Source: Promethearchaeota archaeon
GTDB lineage: Archaea; Asgardarchaeota; Lokiarchaeia; Sigyniarchaeales; SOKP01
Reading direction: 5' to 3'
Length of the DNA stretch: 64,000 nucleotides
Assembly (NCBI GenBank): GCA_016839765.1
Contig: JAEOTP010000007.1
Span: 1 to 64,000 of the forward strand
Shown here: in pieces, positions 32,902 through 45,039 of the stretch
Position numbering within the stretch: position 1 is the stretch's first letter
Layout of the letters: each line of letters opens with the position of its first letter
The notes under the pieces: generated by a model
The model's input: only the letters and a program-made list of their open reading frames with translations
Told to the model about the DNA's origin: nothing
The model's database searches: none
Made by a program: the position numbers and the translations under genes

Positions 32902-34182
32902 ATGAGTAAATTCCATTCTGATATCTCAGGTTTTTATAAACTATCCTTAAGAGAACGGCAAAAAACTCTTTCTGAGCTTGTTAATCTTGATGATGAAGAG
33001 GTCAAATTACTTAAAAATTTTGGATATTTCAAAGAGACACAAATTGATACTTTAATTGAAAACGTTGTTGGATCTTATCAATTACCCATTGGGATTGCGT
33101 GTAATTTTAGAATTAATAACAAGGATTACTTGATTCCTATGGTAATAGAGGAACCTTCCGTTGTTGCAGCAGCTTCAAACGCAGCAAGAATTGCTCGAAA
33201 ACATGGAGGATTTTTTTCAGAAAAAGTAGATTCAATTATGATATCTCAAATCCAAATAACCAATCTTACTGATGTTGAACAAGCTAAAAAAATTTTGTTA
33301 GAGAATAAAAAGAATATATTGAAGATTGCTAATGACCAAGATCCAATCTTAGTAAAACTTGGTGGAGGAGCATATGATTTTGAACTCAGAGATATTTATA
33401 CAAGAAAAGGTGTTATGTTAATAATTCATTTATTAGTCAATGTTTTAGATGCTATGGGTGCTAATGTAGTCAATACTATGGCTGAGTCTGTTACGCCTTA
33501 TATCGAGGAGTTATGTGAGGGTAAAGTTAATCTACGAATCGTATCAAATTTAGCCATTCATAGACTGGCAAAATGTAAAGCTAAATTTGACAAAGTCTTA
33601 TTAGGTGGAGAAGAAGTTGTAAAAGGTATAGTTAATGCATATGAATTTGCCCTTGCTGATCCATATCGTGCCACAACTCATAATAAAGGAATAATGAATG
33701 GAATAACTGCTCTAACTTTAGCAACTGGGAATGATACACGAGCTATAGAATCTGGAGCTCATGCTTATGCTTCATTAAAAGGTAATTATTCTCCATTGAC
33801 TAATTTTGAAGTTGATGCAGAAGGAAATTTAATAGGTGAAATTAAGATTCCACTTGCTTTAGGAATTATTGGCGGGATGACAAAATTACATCCAATGGCG
33901 CGATTAAATCTAAAAATTCTAGGTGTAAAATCAGCTGCAGAGTTATCTCAAGTTGCAGCTGCAGTAGGACTAGCTCAAAACGTTGCAGCATTAAGAGCTT
34001 TAGCGGCTGAAGGTATTCAGAGAGGTCATATGGCACTTCATTCTCGTAATATTGCAAAATTAGCTGGAGTGCCTGAGAATCTTATTGATCAAGTAGCAAA
34101 AAAATTAGTTAAAGATAACAAAATTAGGATTGATTATGCTAAAGAAATATTACAAAAAATTATCGATAAGAAAAACCTTTAG
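32902..34182 (+). CDS. Class II (bacterial-type) HMG-CoA reductase
   Basis: It reduces HMG-CoA to mevalonate with NAD(P)H. The 426-residue length and motifs match class II enzymes: ENVVGSYQLPIGIA (about 53-66), the catalytic Glu in EEPSVVAAASNAA (near 88), LAIHRLAKCKAKF with the catalytic lysine (near 220), DPYRATTHNKGIMNG (near 250) and the C-terminal histidine in GHMALHSRN (near 375). Most archaea use class I; class II occurs in some lineages by ancient exchange with bacteria. A GTGAT ribosome-binding site precedes the ATG. It heads a plus-strand run of mevalonate genes. Confidence 0.92.
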   Translation: MSKFHSDISGFYKLSLRERQKTLSELVNLDDEEVKLLKNFGYFKETQIDTLIENVVGSYQLPIGIACNFRINNKDYLIPMVIEEPSVVAAASNAARIARKHGGFFSEKVDSIMISQIQITNLTDVEQAKKILLENKKNILKIANDQDPILVKLGGGAYDFELRDIYTRKGVMLIIHLLVNVLDAMGANVVNTMAESVTPYIEELCEGKVNLRIVSNLAIHRLAKCKAKFDKVLLGGEEVVKGIVNAYEFALADPYRATTHNKGIMNGITALTLATGNDTRAIESGAHAYASLKGNYSPLTNFEVDAEGNLIGEIKIPLALGIIGGMTKLHPMARLNLKILGVKSAAELSQVAAAVGLAQNVAALRALAAEGIQRGHMALHSRNIAKLAGVPENLIDQVAKKLVKDNKIRIDYAKEILQKIIDKKNL

Positions 34183-34263: not shown

Positions 34264-35574
34264 TTGATAAATTTGGGATTTAGACAATATTTAAATAAAA
34301 TTGAAGAAAGCGGACTTCTTAAAAAAATAGATGTTGATGTTTCAAAGAAATTAGAGATTTCAGGTATTTTAAAAGAATTAGAGCCAACCCCCGTATTGTT
34401 TAATAATGTCAATGAATCTGAGTTCCGAGTAGTTGGCAATATGTTTTGTACTAAAAATGTAATTGCTTCATATTTCGGTGTGACTCCAGCAGATCTTATT
34501 CCTATGCTTTCTAAAGCGATTAAAGAAAGAAAAGAACCTGAGGTTATATCAAAGGCCCCCTGCCAAGAAGTAGTCGAATCAAATGTAGATTTAGATAAAG
34601 TTCCAATATTATTCCACTGTGAAAAGGATGGGGGGAATTATATAAGCTCAGCTGTAGTTGTCACTAAGGATCCTGATTATGGGCAAAATTTGGATTTTCA
34701 TAGAGCTATGCAGATTTCTAAAGAAAAATTTACGACTAGAATAGTAAAAGGACGTCACTTTTACAAATTTTTAGAAAAGAATGGTGAATTGGACGTAGCT
34801 TTTTGTATAGGGAATTCTCCAAATATTCTTATTGCTGGAGCTACTTCTGTTGATATTGGGGTAGATGAATTGACAATTGCTAATGCATTAGAACCAATTA
34901 AACTTGTTAAGGCAAATTCTGTTGATTTATTAATTCCTGCAGAAACTGAATTTGTTTTAGAGGGACGAGTATTTTCGGAAGAAAGATATGCTGAGGGACC
35001 TTTTGTTGATTTAACTGAAACATATGATGTAGTGAGAGATGAACCTGTTTTTGAAGTTAAGAAAATCACACATAGAAAAGATGCAATTTGGCAAGCATTA
35101 TTACCAGGTGCCCTAGAGCATAAGATTTTAATGGGAATGCCCCGTGAGCCAACCATTTTTAATAAAGTGAATGAATCAGGCGTAAAATGTCTAGATGTAA
35201 ACATTAATCCGGGAGGATGCTCATGGCTTCATGCCATTGTAAAAATTGACAAGTCTTCAGAAGAGGATGGTAAAAAAGCAATTTATGGCGCTTTTGCTGG
35301 TCATAGTAGCTGTAAACATGTCTTTGTTGTAGATAAAGATATTGATATCTATGACCCATTATCCGTGGAATGGGCAATGGCAACTCGTTTTCAAGGAGAT
35401 TTAAGAATGGTAATTAAAGATAAAGAACCGGGTAGTAGTTTAGATCCAAGTGCTGAACCAGGCACAAAAATGACTACGAAAATTGGCTTTGATTTCACAA
35501 AACCACTTGTTACTAAGGGTAAGAGTTTTGACTTAGCCAAATTTCCTAAAGTTGACATAGATAAATATCTTTAA
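34264..35574 (+). CDS. UbiD-family anhydromevalonate phosphate decarboxylase
   Basis: UbiD-fold decarboxylase of 436 residues (GGNYISSAVVVTKDPDYG near 120; GRVFSEERYAEGPFVDLT with acidic/Arg active-site residues near 235-250; GNMFCTKN near 60). In the archaeal mevalonate pathway this branch converts trans-anhydromevalonate 5-phosphate to isopentenyl phosphate using prenylated FMN. That role rests on context: it sits directly before the two phosphomevalonate dehydratase genes and near ubiX. The TTG at 34264 is the outermost start; a second in-frame TTG at 34273, spaced behind a GTTGAT motif, may be the true one. The stop is three bases before the next open frame. Confidence 0.88.
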   Translation: MINLGFRQYLNKIEESGLLKKIDVDVSKKLEISGILKELEPTPVLFNNVNESEFRVVGNMFCTKNVIASYFGVTPADLIPMLSKAIKERKEPEVISKAPCQEVVESNVDLDKVPILFHCEKDGGNYISSAVVVTKDPDYGQNLDFHRAMQISKEKFTTRIVKGRHFYKFLEKNGELDVAFCIGNSPNILIAGATSVDIGVDELTIANALEPIKLVKANSVDLLIPAETEFVLEGRVFSEERYAEGPFVDLTETYDVVRDEPVFEVKKITHRKDAIWQALLPGALEHKILMGMPREPTIFNKVNESGVKCLDVNINPGGCSWLHAIVKIDKSSEEDGKKAIYGAFAGHSSCKHVFVVDKDIDIYDPLSVEWAMATRFQGDLRMVIKDKEPGSSLDPSAEPGTKMTTKIGFDFTKPLVTKGKSFDLAKFPKVDIDKYL

Positions 35575-35579
35575 TTTTT

Positions 35580-35585
35580 GGAGGT
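35580..35585 (+). promoter_or_regulatory. Strong ribosome-binding site GGAGGT
   Basis: GGAGGT lies seven bases before the ATG at 35593 and only one base before the ATG at 35587, so it favours 35593 as the start of the dehydratase large subunit. Confidence 0.6.
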
Positions 35586-35592
35586 AATGAAA

Positions 35593-36786
35593 ATGAAATT
35601 AACTTCTGAAGATCAAGATATGTTGGATGGTAAATATGGAAAGGCCACCCAAAAATCAATGGAAATTTTAACCATACTTGGTGAAATATTTGAAGCTGAA
35701 GATATGATTGATGTGGTGGGTGTTCAGATCGCAGGTGTGTCCTATGACAATCTTGGAGAAGCAGGATTGGAATTCTTAAGCGAGATGGCAGAAGATGGAA
35801 AGGTTAGAGTCTTAACTACATTAAATCCAGCAGGAATGGATCGTGAAAATTGGCGAGCATTGGGTATTGATGAAGAATTTGCTAAGAATCAAAATCGCGC
35901 TCTCGATGCTTTTGCTAAAATGGGGATAATTACAACCTGTTCTTGTACGCCTTACTTAATTGGTAATACGCCTCATTATGGTCAGCATCTTGCATGGGCT
36001 GAAAGTAGCGCGGTATGTTATGCTAATTCCGTTATTGGTGCTCGAAGTAATCGTGAAGGCGGCCCAAGTGCTCTAGCATCAGCTTTGACCGGAATAACAC
36101 CTAGATATGGGTATCATTTGGATAAAAATCGTCAAGGGGAAGTTTTAATTAAAGTTAACGCTCCAGTTAAAGGAACCGATGAATTTGGAGTTTTAGGAAA
36201 AATAATAGGTGATAAATTAGTTAAATTAGGCAAAAAAATACCATACATAACAGGTATCCCTTCTGCTTCAATTGAAGAACTCAAGTCATTTTGTGCTTCC
36301 GTTGCTACTTATGGTGGAACTGCACTATTCCACATGGAAAGAATAACTCCCGAATTCGATACATACCCTAAACCAAGCGATATCGTTTTTGACATTAATC
36401 AAAGCGATCTAGATAAAGCACGTGCTGAGCTTATAGATGATCATCTTGAAATTGATTTTGTAAGTATTGGCTGTCCTCACGCTTCAATACATGAAATTGC
36501 CACAATTGCAAAATTGTTAAAGGGAAAGAAAGTAAAGAAAGAATTTTGGATAACTACTGCTCGTCCAACCAAGAGAATTGCAGATGAAGTTGGTTATTCT
36601 AAAATAATTGAAATGGCAGGAGCAAAATTTGCAGCAGATACTTGCTGTGTTGTAGCCCCAATTAAAGGACGTTTCAAGGGTATAATGGTTGACTCCGCTA
36701 AAGCATGTTATTATGGTCGTGCAAAGAATAAATTTAAAGTAAAAATAGGAAAAATTGAAGAATGTGTTGAGGAGGCTACAAAATGA
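35593..36786 (+). CDS. Phosphomevalonate dehydratase large subunit (aconitase X type)
   Basis: It dehydrates 5-phosphomevalonate to trans-anhydromevalonate 5-phosphate, together with the small subunit that follows. The 397-residue protein has the AcnX catalytic-domain pattern: GKYGKATQKSMEIL at the N-terminus, VGVQIAGVSYDNLG, candidate iron-sulfur cysteines in TTCSCTPYLIGN (near 115-120), IGCPHASIHE (near 295) and AADTCCVVAP (near 350), and an SNREGGPSALASALTG loop. The start is set by the GGAGGT site. Its stop overlaps the start of the small-subunit gene (ATGA), a sign of coupled translation and a fixed complex. Confidence 0.9.
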   Translation: MKLTSEDQDMLDGKYGKATQKSMEILTILGEIFEAEDMIDVVGVQIAGVSYDNLGEAGLEFLSEMAEDGKVRVLTTLNPAGMDRENWRALGIDEEFAKNQNRALDAFAKMGIITTCSCTPYLIGNTPHYGQHLAWAESSAVCYANSVIGARSNREGGPSALASALTGITPRYGYHLDKNRQGEVLIKVNAPVKGTDEFGVLGKIIGDKLVKLGKKIPYITGIPSASIEELKSFCASVATYGGTALFHMERITPEFDTYPKPSDIVFDINQSDLDKARAELIDDHLEIDFVSIGCPHASIHEIATIAKLLKGKKVKKEFWITTARPTKRIADEVGYSKIIEMAGAKFAADTCCVVAPIKGRFKGIMVDSAKACYYGRAKNKFKVKIGKIEECVEEATK

Positions 36787-37175
36787 AGCTAAATGGAAGA
36801 AAAATATATAAGGGGAAAACTAAAGGAAAAACAATAGTCACCAAAGACGGAATTTCGTTTTATGGAGGCATAGATCCCGATACTGGAATAGTTGTGGAAG
36901 TTGGACATGAATTAGAAGGCCAATCTGTTTCTGGTAAAATATTAGTATTTCCAACTGGAAAAGGTTCTACTGTGGGGTCTTATACTATGTATCGAATGAA
37001 GAAGAATAATACAGCTCCTCTAGCTATAATTAACGAAAAGATCGATACGATCATTGCAGTGGGATGTATAATAAGCGAAATTCCATGCGTGGATATGATC
37101 GATATTAACTTAATAAAAAATGAACAGGAAGTTGTTGTCAATGGTTCTGAAGGAACTGTTGAAATTATAGATTAA
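36783..37175 (+). CDS. Phosphomevalonate dehydratase small subunit
   Basis: The 130-residue swivelling-domain subunit of the AcnX-type dehydratase is recognisable from GKILVFPTGKGSTVGSYTMY (about 58-77), which holds the conserved serine region, and APLAIINEKIDTIIAVGCII. Usual length is about 130-140 residues. It overlaps the large-subunit gene by four bases. After it comes an A-run/T-run stretch (37178-37203) that may cause partial termination before the mevalonate kinase gene. Confidence 0.9.
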   Translation: MKLNGRKIYKGKTKGKTIVTKDGISFYGGIDPDTGIVVEVGHELEGQSVSGKILVFPTGKGSTVGSYTMYRMKKNNTAPLAIINEKIDTIIAVGCIISEIPCVDMIDINLIKNEQEVVVNGSEGTVEIID

Positions 37176-37254: not shown

Positions 37255-38221
37255 TTGGGAACTGGAAAAGGGTATGGAAAGACTATTCTTTTTGGCGAAT
37301 TTTTCCTCCCAATTCGGGAATAAACGCTAACATTTTGTAGTTTATGGTCTTCCAGCAATCGCATCCGCTATCGGTTCTAAGACAATCGCTACTGTTAAAG
37401 CAGTCAATGGCGAAGGATGGACAGTAGATGACCAACGAATAGCAACACCAGGTTATAAGGATAAAAAATTTAAAGAGGCCCAACAAGCTATTATTAACGT
37501 TATTAAATACTTAAATATTGATATTATTAATAATAAACTTGAGATTACTTTTACAGGAGATTTAGTAGCAGCAAGTGGAGTGGGAGCTTCTGCAGCTCAA
37601 TGTACTTCTCTTGCTCGTGCACTCAGTGAGGAATTTAATCTTAATTTAGATGATGAAAAAATAAATGAAGCTGCTTATTCAGGTGAAATGGCATACCATG
37701 GAACTCCATCTGGCATCGATAATACCGCATCCACATATGGAGGATTAATTTGGTTTGTGAAAAGTTTAAGTGGAGGAAAAAACACCATTGATCGTCTCAA
37801 ATCTGCCGAAAAAATGCATTTAATTATAGCAAATACGGGCATAACTGCTTCTACTGCTGAGGTTGTTGCAGATGTTCGTAAATTGAGAGAAGAGAATCCA
37901 GAAAAGTTTAATAAAATATTCAATAAATATGAAAAAATCGCAAAAAATGCAAAAAATGCATTAATTAAAGGCGATAGGGATTCTGTTGGAAAATTAATGA
38001 ATCAAAATCATAAATTATTACAATTAATATCAGTTTCATCTGAGATTAATGACAAAATTGTCGATATTGCCTTAAATAATGGAGCAATAGGAGCAAAAAT
38101 GACTGGGACTGGTCGAGGGGGATTAGTAATAGCTTTAACCTTAGATGAAAATAATCAAAAAAGTGTTTCTGCTACTATCGAGAAGGAGGGTTTTTCAACA
38201 TGGAAAACAACTATTGGTTAA
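37255..38221 (+). CDS. mvk: Mevalonate kinase, interrupted by a 31-nt putative intron
   Basis: GHMP-family kinase making 5-phosphomevalonate. The uninterrupted frame only covers 37580-38221 (from the GTG in the ATP-binding loop), but the reading frame is legible from 37331 (HFVVYGLPAIASAIG) onward, and a 15-codon first exon runs from the TTG at 37255 to 37299 (MGTGKGYGKTILFGE). Joining 37299 to 37331 gives the classic ILFGEHFVVYGLPAIA motif, then the GDLVAASGVGASAAQ ATP loop, HGTPSGIDNTAS with the catalytic Asp, and MTGTGRGGLVIAL. The spliced product has 311 residues (936 nt with stop, divisible by three), the usual length. Unspliced, the mRNA meets TAA at 37328. A degraded gene is the alternative, but no other damage is visible. 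Confidence 0.85.
37300..37330 (+). other. Putative 31-nt BHB-type archaeal intron in mevalonate kinase
   Basis: This insertion falls exactly between codons GAA and CAT of the conserved FGEH motif. G294-G297 (GGCG) can pair with C325-T328 (CGCT, one G·U) as a four-base-pair central helix. It is followed on each strand by a three-base bulge, A298-A299-T300 and A329-A330-C331. Cutting between the second and third base of each bulge, where tRNA-splicing endonuclease cuts, removes exactly 37300-37330. On the intron side TTT (301-303) pairs with AAA (322-324) and TCCC (307-310) with GGGA (316-319). (Numbers without prefix are last three digits after 37.) The exon-side helix is weak, so it would be a relaxed motif. 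Confidence 0.7.
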
Positions 38222-38290: not shown

Positions 38291-40183
38291 GTGAAGAGAG
38301 ACAATACAATATACTTATTAAAATTAGGCGGTAGTTTACTAACTGATAAAAACGAACCTTCTTCATTAAGGGAAGATGTTATAAACAGAGCTATTGAACA
38401 GATTATAGAAAGTAATAAAAGAGTTGTTTTGATTCATGGCGGAGGTTCATTTGGTCACCCTATTGCAAAAAAATATCAATTATTTAAAGGATTAAACACA
38501 TCTATTAAAAATCAAGTATTAGGGCTTTCTAAAACTCATGAAATGATGAATCAACTTAATACAATAATAATAAACAAATTTTTAAAGAAGAATTACCCAG
38601 TTTTATCTATTTCACCTTCAGCAATATTTATTAAAAGATCTCAACAGTTTATACTTAATTCCATTGATCCAATTGAAATTTCATTGAAATTAGGGGTTTT
38701 ACCAATCCTCTATGGAGATATCATCCTAGAAAAAGATGGTTCCTTCTCAATAATATCTGGAGATGACATAATTTTAGAATTATGTAAGACCTTGAAGAAT
38801 TTTGAAATTGTTAAGGTTATTTTTGCTATTGAGAAAGACGGGATTTATGTAAAAGACGGAGATAGTATTGAATTTGCTTCACAAATTAATTTTGATGAAT
38901 TAAAAAGTGTAGAATTAGCTGATTTAGAGCATAAAATAGATGTGACCGGAGGAATTGGAAGAAAATTTGAAATTATAAAACAAATTGCTGAATTAAATAT
39001 TCCTGTTCAAGTTATTAATGGCTTAAAAAAAAATTATATCTTAAAATCTTTAAAAAACCAAAAGCTAGATTGCACAAATATTAGCTTATCTAAGGAAAAA
39101 GATGATATTCAAGCAATTCATACCAGAAAATTAGAACATTTAACAATCCCATTAGATTATAATGTACAATCCACTAAAAATTATTTTGACGAAATTATAT
39201 TAATACATCATCCATTACCTGAAATAGAATTACATGATGTTGAATTAGGAACCCAATTTTTCAATAAAAGTGTTTCCGCTCCTATTTGTATTGCAGCTAT
39301 AACTGGTGGCCATCCAATATCTAAAAAAATTAATAAAATATTAGCAGAAGCTGCTGAATCAGAAAATATAATAATGAGTGTTGGAAGTCAACGTATAGCA
39401 TTAGAGGATCAAACCGCTGTTGAATCCTTTCAAATCGTTCGAGAATGCGCTCCAAATATTCCTATTATTGGAAATCTTGGAATAGGACAAATAAGTTCTA
39501 ATGATTTTCAATTAGAAGAATTTCAAAAATGCATTGAAATGATAAATGCTGATATTATGGCAATTCATTTCAATGCTCTCCATGAATTAGTACAAAAAGA
39601 TGGTAATATTTATTATACAGCTTTTTCTGATAACTTTAAAACAGTAAGGGAAAGGTTTAAGATTCCCATAATTGCTAAAGAAGTTGGAACAGGCTTTAAC
39701 CGTGATCTAGCCTTACAGCTTGACCTTTTGGGTTTTGATGGATTTGACGTAGGAGGAATGGGAGGCACAAATTTTACTAGTATAGAATCAATTAGAGATA
39801 ATGATAATAATGAAAATTATACAAGAAAACTTGCTGATACACTAAAAAATTGGGGGATACCAACTCCAATTAGTATTTTAAATGTCAGAAGTACATCAAA
39901 AAAGCCTATCATTGCAACGGGAGGGTTAAGGACGGGACTTGATATTGCAAAAAGTATAGTTTTAGGAGCGGATATAGGAGGTTTTGCCTACAAATTCCTT
40001 AAATCTGCTTGGAAAGATTATAAACAAGAAACAATAACCAATACAATAAATGAAATTCGAACATTAAAACACGAATTACTGTCAGTAATGTGGTTATTAA
40101 ATATAGATAAAATTGAAAATCTTAAAAGTAAAAGAGAAAAAAGTATCCTCTTAGGAGATATGTATAAATGGGCTAACCAATAA
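38291..40183 (+). CDS. Isopentenyl phosphate kinase–type 2 IPP isomerase fusion
   Basis: A 630-residue bifunctional enzyme joins the last two steps of the archaeal pathway. Residues 1 to about 262 are an amino-acid-kinase-fold isopentenyl phosphate kinase: LLKLGGSLLTDK (9-20), HGGGSFGHPIAKKY with the signature histidines (near 50-63), SGDDIILEL and DVTGGIGRKFE. Residues about 275-630 are a type 2 (FMN-dependent) IPP isomerase: TRKLEHL, SVSAPICIAAITGGH, VGSQRIALED, IIAKEVGTG, DVGGMGGTNF and ATGGLRTGLDIAKSI. The usual HLNxLQExxQPEGD motif reads HFNALHELVQKDGN here. The start is GTG at 38291. The fusion delivers IPP straight to isomerisation to DMAPP. Confidence 0.9.
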   Translation: MKRDNTIYLLKLGGSLLTDKNEPSSLREDVINRAIEQIIESNKRVVLIHGGGSFGHPIAKKYQLFKGLNTSIKNQVLGLSKTHEMMNQLNTIIINKFLKKNYPVLSISPSAIFIKRSQQFILNSIDPIEISLKLGVLPILYGDIILEKDGSFSIISGDDIILELCKTLKNFEIVKVIFAIEKDGIYVKDGDSIEFASQINFDELKSVELADLEHKIDVTGGIGRKFEIIKQIAELNIPVQVINGLKKNYILKSLKNQKLDCTNISLSKEKDDIQAIHTRKLEHLTIPLDYNVQSTKNYFDEIILIHHPLPEIELHDVELGTQFFNKSVSAPICIAAITGGHPISKKINKILAEAAESENIIMSVGSQRIALEDQTAVESFQIVRECAPNIPIIGNLGIGQISSNDFQLEEFQKCIEMINADIMAIHFNALHELVQKDGNIYYTAFSDNFKTVRERFKIPIIAKEVGTGFNRDLALQLDLLGFDGFDVGGMGGTNFTSIESIRDNDNNENYTRKLADTLKNWGIPTPISILNVRSTSKKPIIATGGLRTGLDIAKSIVLGADIGGFAYKFLKSAWKDYKQETITNTINEIRTLKHELLSVMWLLNIDKIENLKSKREKSILLGDMYKWANQ

Positions 40184-42319: not shown

Positions 42320-43387
42320 CTAATAATTCCTATTCATCACAAATTTTAAGAGACTTTCAAAAAATTCTGTTTCTGACGGATCTATTACTTTCTTTAGACC
42401 ATCTAGAGCATTTTTTGCTTTATCAAAATAATTTCTTGATAATTCCTTGCACGAATCAACTACTTCAGCTTCTAAAAACAAATCCTTGACTTTTTGAACA
42501 TCATTTTTTGCCATGTTTTGATTATGTATCAAATCATTAAGATGCTTTTTCTTACTATCATCCAATTTCTCATAAGCTTCTATTAATAAACAAGTCTTTT
42601 TACCTTCTCTTATATCTCCATCAGTTGGTTTTCCTGTTACTTTTTCATCCCCAAAAGTACCTAGGATGTCATCTATAATTTGAAAAACTATACCTAAATT
42701 AATGCCATAACTAGATAAGAGTTTAACGTTAGCTTTATTTACATTGGCATAATTTGCACCAATTAATAATGATTTTTCGATTAATGCGCCCGTTTTTAAG
42801 GAAATCATGTTAATATAGTCATTAATTGTTAATTCTTCCTTATTTACCATATCCATTTCAATTAAAACACCATTCGCAATTTCAATAAAAGCTTGCTCAT
42901 ACAAGGAAACCGCTTTTAAATTTAAATCTGTAGCAAAATCATTATAAAAATACGCTTCTAAACCTAAGAAAAACGCTGTATCACCACCTATTATTCCTAT
43001 GGAATTACCAAAATCTAACGCATCCATCTTTTGTAGACTGTACTTCTTGTGATAATTCTGAAATCTATAATGAAAAGCAGGATTTCCTCTTCTAAAATTA
43101 TCTTTATCTATAATATCGTCGTGTACTAATGAGGCATTGTGAAGAAATTCGATTCCAACACTTGGAATTAAAATTCTTTCATCTTTTTCTTTCTTAAATG
43201 CGTTATAGGCAGCTATAGTGAGGATTGGGCGAATCCTTTTACCCCCACTGAGAAAATAATCTTGAAGTTCTGAATAATAACTAATTAAAAAATCATCTTT
43301 TATATTTTTTAACTTTCTTTCAAAAAGATTATTAATTTCTTCGTTAATCTTTGGTCTATAAAGCCCTAAATAATTTAAAAATTTAAT
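42320..43387 (-). CDS. Geranylgeranyl diphosphate synthase (apparent ATT start)
   Basis: Trans-prenyltransferase making the C20 (or similar) diphosphate for ether lipids. The first ATG is at 43027 and gives only 235 residues, lacking the first aspartate-rich motif. The same frame continues upstream without a stop to 43387 and encodes the whole N-terminal half: YFLSGGKRIRPILTIAAYNA (about 44-63), FLHNASLVHDDIIDKDNFRRG with the first DDxxD (Asp90-Asp94), then after the ATG the second motif QIIDDILGTFGD. No ATG, GTG or TTG exists in this stretch; ATT at 43387, five bases after an AGTGAT site, is the only candidate after the upstream stops. From there it is 355 residues, a normal length. Confidence 0.85.
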   Translation of the reverse strand: MKFLNYLGLYRPKINEEINNLFERKLKNIKDDFLISYYSELQDYFLSGGKRIRPILTIAAYNAFKKEKDERILIPSVGIEFLHNASLVHDDIIDKDNFRRGNPAFHYRFQNYHKKYSLQKMDALDFGNSIGIIGGDTAFFLGLEAYFYNDFATDLNLKAVSLYEQAFIEIANGVLIEMDMVNKEELTINDYINMISLKTGALIEKSLLIGANYANVNKANVKLLSSYGINLGIVFQIIDDILGTFGDEKVTGKPTDGDIREGKKTCLLIEAYEKLDDSKKKHLNDLIHNQNMAKNDVQKVKDLFLEAEVVDSCKELSRNYFDKAKNALDGLKKVIDPSETEFFESLLKFVMNRNY

Positions 43388-43738
43388 AGAAAATCACTAA
43401 AATTTATTGTGTTATTTCTTAATTTAAATTGATTTTAAATAAAAGTGCTATCAAATTTAGAATAATATGAAAGGTTTGATAGATGTGATAAATTAATAAT
43501 TTAATAAAAAATATTGTTCTCTGATATGATAAAAAAGAATCGATACAGATTTTCTTATTAATTCTTTATTAAATTACTAAATTCACTTAGTATAATTATT
43601 ATAAAAAACACATTCTTTTGATGATACTATAAAGACAAACAAGTATTTCGCTTACTAAGAATCTTAATACCAACATTATGGAGATATAAAAATCAAGGTG
43701 TTTTAAAAACCAAATTATCGAAAAATTAATAGAAAAAA
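43388..43738. other. 351-base AT-rich region left of tnpB
   Basis: This region lies between GGPP synthase (minus) and tnpB (plus). It must contain the GGPP synthase promoter and the left end of the TnpB element. I cannot define the element boundary: there is no tnpA gene, no target duplication is expected for this family, and no clear hairpin stands out in the AT-rich sequence. Confidence 0.5.
43393..43398 (-). promoter_or_regulatory. Weak ribosome-binding site before the GGPP synthase ATT
   Basis: On the minus strand AGTGAT lies five bases before ATT (43387-43385) and directly after in-frame stops. It resembles the GGTGA-type sites used by other genes here. Confidence 0.35.
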
Positions 43739-44965
43739 ATGAGATTAACTGAGGTTATCCATGTAAAGCATTCATTAGAATTATCAAAAGTATGTCATTT
43801 AGCTAAGAACCTTTATAATTTAGCTAATTGGTATATAAGACAGGATTTCTTTAATCTTAATAATGTTTTAACCTATTATGATTTAGACTTTATTTTGAAA
43901 CATACACAAGCTTATCAGAATCTTCCCTCTCAAACTTCACAGCAAATTCTCAAATATGTGAATAGAAACTGGAAATCTTATTTTAGAGCGATAAAAGAAT
44001 ATAACCGAGATAACAAGAAGTTTAAGCAAAAACCCAGAATCCCCAGTTACAAAAAGAAAAGTGGAGAATCTATTGTAGTTTTTACCAATCAACAATGCCG
44101 GATAAAAAAAGGATATTTACATTTTCCAAAAAGGGTTAATCTTGAATCAATTAAAATTAGAATTAAAAATAAATTAAAGGAAGTAAGGATAATCCCTTTA
44201 GGAGTAAAATATAAAATTGAAACGATATATGAAAAAGAAGAGAAGGAGTTAGGATTAGATAAAGAGTATATTTTAAGCATTGATTTAGGGTTGAATAATC
44301 TCATAACTGCAGAAAATAATAGGTGTACCCCATTTATTATAAAAGGTGGGATGATAAAATCTATAAATCAATATTATAACAAACAATTGGCATATTTTAG
44401 AAGTATTGAAAATAAGAAGGGAAATTTTAGTGATACAAAAAGAATTCAAAAACTGCATTTAACTCGAAACAATAAACTTACTACATTGTTTCATCGAATT
44501 TCCAAAAATGTAATTAAGTATTGTATTCAAAATAACATTGGAACAATTTTAATAGGATACAATAACGGATGGAAGCAGAACATTAGTTTTGGAAAAAAAA
44601 AAAATCAGAAATTTATTCAAATTCCTTTCTTGAAATTAGTAAAACAAATTGAATATAAAAGTAAATTGAAAGGGATTCAAGTTAAGCGAGTTGAAGAATC
44701 TTACACTTCCAAATGCTCTTTCTTAGACAAAGAATCTATTGAAAAACATGAAAAGTATGGAGGAAAAAGAATTTCCAGAGGCTTGTTTAAAACTTCTAAA
44801 GGTATTCTAATCAATGCCGATGTGAATGGGGCATATAATATCATGAAAAAAGCATTCCCAAATGCCGTTTCGGTGGATGGGATAGAGGCATTCGGACTAA
44901 TGCCACAAATAATTCAACAACACATCGCTGATAAGATTATTTGCAATAAAATGGGTATAGTATAA
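43739..44965 (+). mobile_element. tnpB: TnpB (IS200/IS605-type RNA-guided nuclease), no tnpA
   Basis: The 408-residue TnpB has the usual N-terminal helical region (HLAKNLYNLANWYIRQDFF, about 21-39) and RuvC motif I (LSIDLGLNN, Asp182). At the usual RuvC-II position it reads LIGYNNGWKQN with Gly273 instead of Glu. It then has VEESYTSKCSFLD (Glu319/320) and INADVNGAYNIM (Asp361). This matches a known subgroup in which the second catalytic acid has moved and the zinc ribbon is reduced. TnpB uses an RNA from the element's right end to cut DNA and maintain the element. No Y1 transposase gene lies beside it, so it would depend on one elsewhere. The right end must fall in the 75 bases before the mannosidase gene. 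Confidence 0.85.
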
Positions 44966-45039
44966 CTCATTTTAATAGTCTACTTCTTTACAAAGATATC
45001 AAAAATGTTTTTAATTTTTATGAGATTATTGTTTATACC

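Follow-up and report, generated by a model that had tools for sequence, protein, structure and literature searches.

The window analysed here, a 64,000-nucleotide stretch of DNA from a Promethearchaeota archaeon, contains a reading frame (38291..40183, + strand) in which an isopentenyl phosphate kinase (IPK) appears to be joined to a type 2 isopentenyl diphosphate (IPP) isomerase (IDI2). Is this one bifunctional protein, and is its isomerase half, which deviates from the usual active-site motif, still an isomerase? The genome carrying the window (G000; 3.3 Mb, 96 contigs, 96% complete) was searched for the partners and possible substitutes of the two domains.

A kinase and an isomerase in one frame

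The frame runs from a GTG at 38291 to a TAA at 40183 without an internal stop and encodes 630 residues. Its N-terminal half (residues 9-264; 38315..39082, +) matches the NCBIfam IPK model NF040647 over the full length with 202.1 bits, above the curated equivalog cut-off of 120 bits, and several solved IPKs (PDB 8u0k, 7n9d and 3k4o). It carries the motifs KLGGS (at 38321), GGGSFGHP (38438) and TGGIG (38945), the histidine of GGGSFGH being H56 in an alignment to 8u0k. The C-terminal half (residues 278-614; 39122..40132, +) is likewise a full-length match to TIGR02151 (NCBIfam), with 344.1 bits against a cut-off of 281.3 bits, and to PDB 2zru (E 4.5e-69); its solved relatives are the IDI2s of S. 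shibatae, B. subtilis and T. thermophilus. Pfam assignments of both halves agree with NCBIfam at the fold level. With both models above their cut-offs, the original prediction of two full domains in this order within one frame is borne out, and its remark that the kinase product, IPP, is the isomerase substrate was right as well. Compared with stand-alone archaeal IPKs (NF040647; PDB 8u0k, 3k4o, 3ll9), the kinase half shares the amino-acid-kinase fold, the GGGSFGHP motif including the conserved histidine, and the full-length match, but it has no stop of its own and runs on into the isomerase.

The two domains are joined by a linker of about residues 265-277 (39083..39121, +). Direct reading of about residues 262-278, CTNISLSKEKDDIQAIHTRK, revealed no in-frame ATG, GTG, TTG or stop. 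The finding named at the outset as one that would undo the fusion, a stop or start overlooked around codon 265, is thus absent, and 21 other species share the single frame. The contig scan returned a single genome, a 91%-identical relative with the same fusion. Between the two, DNA differences at codon positions 1, 2 and 3 number 17, 11 and 40 in the IPK, 1, 1 and 4 in the linker, and 20, 8 and 53 in the IDI2. Such third-position bias is the pattern of a translated, constrained frame and points to purifying selection on both halves.

Judged from these matches, the gene very likely encodes a bifunctional IPK-IDI2 enzyme, the terminal module of the archaeal mevalonate pathway. The N-terminal domain would convert isopentenyl phosphate and ATP to IPP, and the FMN-dependent C-terminal domain would turn part of this IPP into dimethylallyl diphosphate (DMAPP), so that a single polypeptide would supply the prenyl synthase of the neighbouring gene with its two C5 units. 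Both activities, like the use of FMN and NAD(P)H, are predicted, and channelling of IPP between the domains is a possibility. Natural fusions of consecutive steps show which enzymes gain from coupling, and IPK-IDI2 would be a ready-made isopentenyl-phosphate-to-DMAPP module for engineering.

Distribution and origin of the fusion

Frames were extracted from loci in 78 genomes of the class and then in 227 of the phylum. Among these 227 Asgard genomes, the fusion is a single frame in 22 Lokiarchaeal genomes, all from one family and spread over four genera: the window's own genus (nine genomes), g8 (ten), g3 (two) and g7 (one). A search for the domain pair elsewhere, as suggested with the original prediction, was thus answered within the Asgard phylum: no fusion was found beyond this clade among the genomes examined, where the tested loci are split. 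Candidates in G086, G154 and G177, from other Asgard lineages, turned out to be separate genes that keep the active-site glutamine discussed below. At 22 further loci the IPK and IDI2 genes are adjacent but separate, the IDI2 ATG mostly lying 9-19 nt past the IPK stop. Adjacent pairs in other Asgard genomes have the same order and direction, with a short spacer, but encode two proteins. The fused or split state changed at least three times on the IPK and IDI2 tree, a minimum taken from one tree with several forks open. Across the fusions the linkers span about 13-17 residues between conserved ends and vary in sequence. Most likely, two neighbouring genes became fused when the IPK stop codon and the short spacer behind it were lost. 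For the split species, an intron where IPK and IDI2 meet was considered and dropped, as ordinary separate genes suffice where the ATG mostly follows the stop by 9-19 nt.

We regard it as very improbable that the fusion does not function as one chain, whether as a sequencing or assembly accident or with the IDI2 translated from an internal start of its own. Several relatives in genus g1 do have an ATG at the edge of the IDI2 domain (YMRKLEHL), and the many close relatives with separate genes and closely spaced ATGs lend themselves to the same reading. However, the linker in the window offers no start codon, change through it is third-position-biased, and the fusion is present in 22 separately assembled genomes, which rejects assembly error as its source.

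A plasmid search yielded no record covering 80% of the query, its best matches being stand-alone IDI2s. No natural IPK-isomerase fusion was found in the titles and abstracts searched, a body of literature with most subscription papers outside it, and the words 'fused' and 'fusion' do not occur in a study of Asgard isoprenoid genes (PMC11052028). The pathway is known; a fused IPK-IDI2 with a lineage-wide active-site substitution is previously undescribed in the literature searched. Several members of the window's genus (G002, G003, G007, G008, G009, G014, G016, G017 and G021; for example L080:300-1124) have an additional IPK-like gene, which shares about 30-34% identity with the IPK of the window.

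A histidine in the isomerase active site

The motif that the original prediction had singled out, HFNALHELVQKDGN, is present in the protein, and the H of its 'LHE' is residue 431 (codon 39581..39583, +), which aligns with Gln160 of S. shibatae IDI2. The window protein shares with solved IDI2s (TIGR02151; S. shibatae 2zru, B. subtilis 1p0k, T. thermophilus 1vcf) the whole domain and its FMN, phosphate and Mg residues, and differs from them in His431, in the fusion to IPK and in the loop QKDGN in place of a QPEGD-like one. Where the IDI2 pattern HxNxxQE calls for glutamine at 160, it has histidine, while R7, K8, T68, G69, S96, R98, N125, H155, N157, E161, K193 and E229 (S. shibatae numbering) are all kept; the roles of individual residues in binding phosphate, FMN and Mg are those we take to hold for the family as a whole. 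The suspected deviation is therefore a real and lineage-wide Gln-to-His change, but metal binding, whose change had also been raised as possible, is not obviously altered, since the Mg-binding Glu161 is kept as E432.

Histidine occupies the Gln160 position in 44 of the 45 IDI2s of the clade, fused and split alike; only the fused G029 protein has Gln there. Glutamine is also the residue in the alignment's more distant Asgard IDI2s and in the adjacent pairs examined outside the clade. Since the substitution is lineage-wide and occurs in unfused relatives, it is neither caused by nor specific to the fusion.

IDI2 is an unusual flavoenzyme without net redox chemistry. Alanine mutants of its active-site residues are reported to retain about 1-35% of activity or efficiency, and N5 of the reduced flavin is the proposed acid/base (PMC3509576). 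Gln160 is conserved among the reference IDI2s but is not known to be indispensable (PMC3509576). It is thus a conserved rather than a defining residue, and histidine in its place lowers certainty about activity without excluding membership of the IDI2 family. Lying in the active site, the change could lower activity or alter specificity. Nevertheless, since mutants are partly active and the acid/base role probably falls to N5 of the reduced FMN, a histidine here fits an active enzyme, and His431 would be expected to tune rather than abolish catalysis. The lineage-wide change would amount to a natural experiment on the role of this residue.

No further IDI2 besides the fusion was found in G000. 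Nor was a type 1 isomerase: the sole TIGR02150 match in that genome scores 43.5 bits against a cut-off of 105.8, and it was rejected as a backup, being a fusion of a Nudix protein with a cytidylyltransferase-like domain. Genomes without an H-type IDI2 (genus g2 and G009) have a Q-type IDI2 instead, and the two types were seen together only in G035. Polyprenyl synthesis requires DMAPP, so the H-type domain is very probably the working isomerase, which we take as the most likely reading of these sequences.

It is accordingly doubtful that the IDI2-like half has ceased to make DMAPP and now regulates or scaffolds the kinase, or isomerises another substrate, for example isopentenyl phosphate or a longer prenyl phosphate. 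This reading draws on the histidine in 44 of the 45 clade sequences, but every other FMN, substrate and metal residue that was checked is kept, the TIGR02151 score is above its cut-off, the H-type is distributed almost complementarily to the Q-type, and the domain is under purifying selection. No alternative IPP isomerase was found in G000, which makes loss of isomerase activity improbable.

Two other proteins of the family deserve mention. The Nudix protein of G000 (L103:761-1912, contig C34) is 383 aa long with NUDIX and cytidylyltransferase-like domains, and similar matches occur across the family. Genus g6 (G028, G036, G058, G059; for example L053:307-1383) has an additional, divergent paralogue of IDI2. 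Its phosphate and His155 positions are altered (E7 and Y155 in L053), and its activity may differ.

The mevalonate operon and a candidate intron

Upstream of the isomerase half, the genes from HMG-CoA reductase (HMGR) to IPK lie on one strand: HMGR (32902..34182, +; TIGR00532), a UbiD-family decarboxylase, probably the anhydromevalonate phosphate decarboxylase (34264..35574, +; TIGR00148, PF01977; substrate assigned from gene context), AcnX, the probable large subunit of phosphomevalonate dehydratase (35578..36786, +; PF04412), the AcnX swivel protein, its probable small subunit (36783..37175, +; PF01989), and mevalonate kinase (MVK). The set of the archaeal modified mevalonate pathway is therefore present (AcnX large and small subunits, UbiD-like decarboxylase, MVK and IPK), with the AcnX and UbiD protein roles predicted from gene context, and the gene order fits that pathway. 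The same HMGR-to-IPK set in one direction is known from the AcnX/UbiD/IPK route (PMC10040528, PMC11052028), whereas here the last two steps are fused.

The MVK gene, which adjoins the fusion gene one gene upstream, is interrupted. Exon 1 (37255..37299, +), MGTGKGYGKTILFGE, begins with a TTG aligned with the ATG of relatives; it is followed by a putative 31-nt bulge-helix-bulge (BHB) intron (37300..37330, +) and by exon 2 (37331..38221, +), with TIGR00549 matching the downstream part. The insert and its flanks read GGCGAA^TTTTTCCTCCCAATTCGGGAATAAACGCTAA^CATTTTG, and exact excision of the 31 nt restores both the kinase motif and the reading frame. The 91% relative has the same insert. Altogether, an insert stands at exactly the same site in 23 aligned genomes (31 nt, or 28 in one), while ten other aligned genomes have an uninterrupted motif. 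GGCG at the end of the exon pairs with CGC[U/A] at the end of the insert. This leaves a 3-nt bulge on either strand, AA^N on one and NN^C on the other; the two bulges thus surround a 4-bp helix, and cuts past the second bulge base restore the frame. At the outermost position of the central helix, only seven of the 23 sequences have a G-U or G-C pair; the rest are unpaired there, mostly G-A. The motif is read as a relaxed BHB with canonical cut positions.

Over thirteen named pairs, 83.6% of cells are paired and the covariation score is 0.235, against 0.141 (sd 0.014) for shuffles and at most 0.129 for a slid alignment; one row reads GGUG/CACU. Further out, AAGACCAT and ATGGTCTT can form an exonic outer helix; of its 8 pairs, 7.8 are kept in genomes with the insert and 5.1 in those without. 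A covariance model found the insert in 25 of the 227 Asgard genomes, all within the fusion-bearing family; three further matches were 44-nt and insert-free. The tree implies six or more changes between presence and absence of the insert. No MVK besides the interrupted gene was found in G000; the one candidate for a second copy was dismissed as a distant kinase of only 27% identity. Between the window and the 91% relative, exon 2 differs at 18, 6 and 47 sites of codon positions 1, 2 and 3 (re-indexed from 47/18/6, the slice having started five bases into the exon). G000 also has two splicing-endonuclease genes (C72 and C82), each encoding an N-terminal and a C-terminal domain, as would fit the hetero-oligomeric type of enzyme that has been linked to relaxed motifs (PMC2738675).

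We consider the insert a strong candidate pre-mRNA intron of an Asgard archaeon. That ribosomes instead cross it by bypassing or frameshifting, or that the gene is in decay, is unlikely. Both lengths, 31 and 28 nt, are 1 modulo 3, as would suit such explanations; against them, the positions of in-frame stops vary between species, the BHB geometry sets both cuts exactly at the GEHF junction, the outer helix is kept mainly where the insert is present, exon 2 is under codon constraint, the gene is the sole MVK in G000, and two splicing-endonuclease genes are at hand. To our knowledge very few archaeal protein-gene introns are confirmed, and eukaryotes have no closer known relatives than the Asgard archaea. 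In 2009 confirmed archaeal pre-mRNA splicing was limited to cbf5 (PMC2738675). Unlike that intron of Crenarchaeota, the putative one here is 31 nt long and lies in mevalonate kinase of an Asgard archaeon. No Asgard pre-mRNA intron was found in the literature, of which our coverage is incomplete; if real, this would be the first as far as the searched literature shows, and membrane-lipid synthesis would depend on a tRNA-splicing enzyme. The intron would be of wider import than the fusion. Taken jointly, we think it probable that this isoprenoid operon holds two unreported features, a bifunctional His-type IPK-IDI2 and an obligatory 31-nt BHB intron in its sole MVK.

Downstream on the opposite strand lies a polyprenyl, probably geranylgeranyl, diphosphate synthase gene (42320..43084, -; PF00348). 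In both the window and the 91% relative, its frame (42320-43100, -) has no ATG, GTG or TTG upstream of the conserved N-terminal part, and a non-standard start codon or a hidden exon is possible. Beyond it, an insertion of about 1.5 kb (43478-44977) that is absent in the 91% relative carries an OrfB_IS605/TnpB-like gene at 43739-44965.
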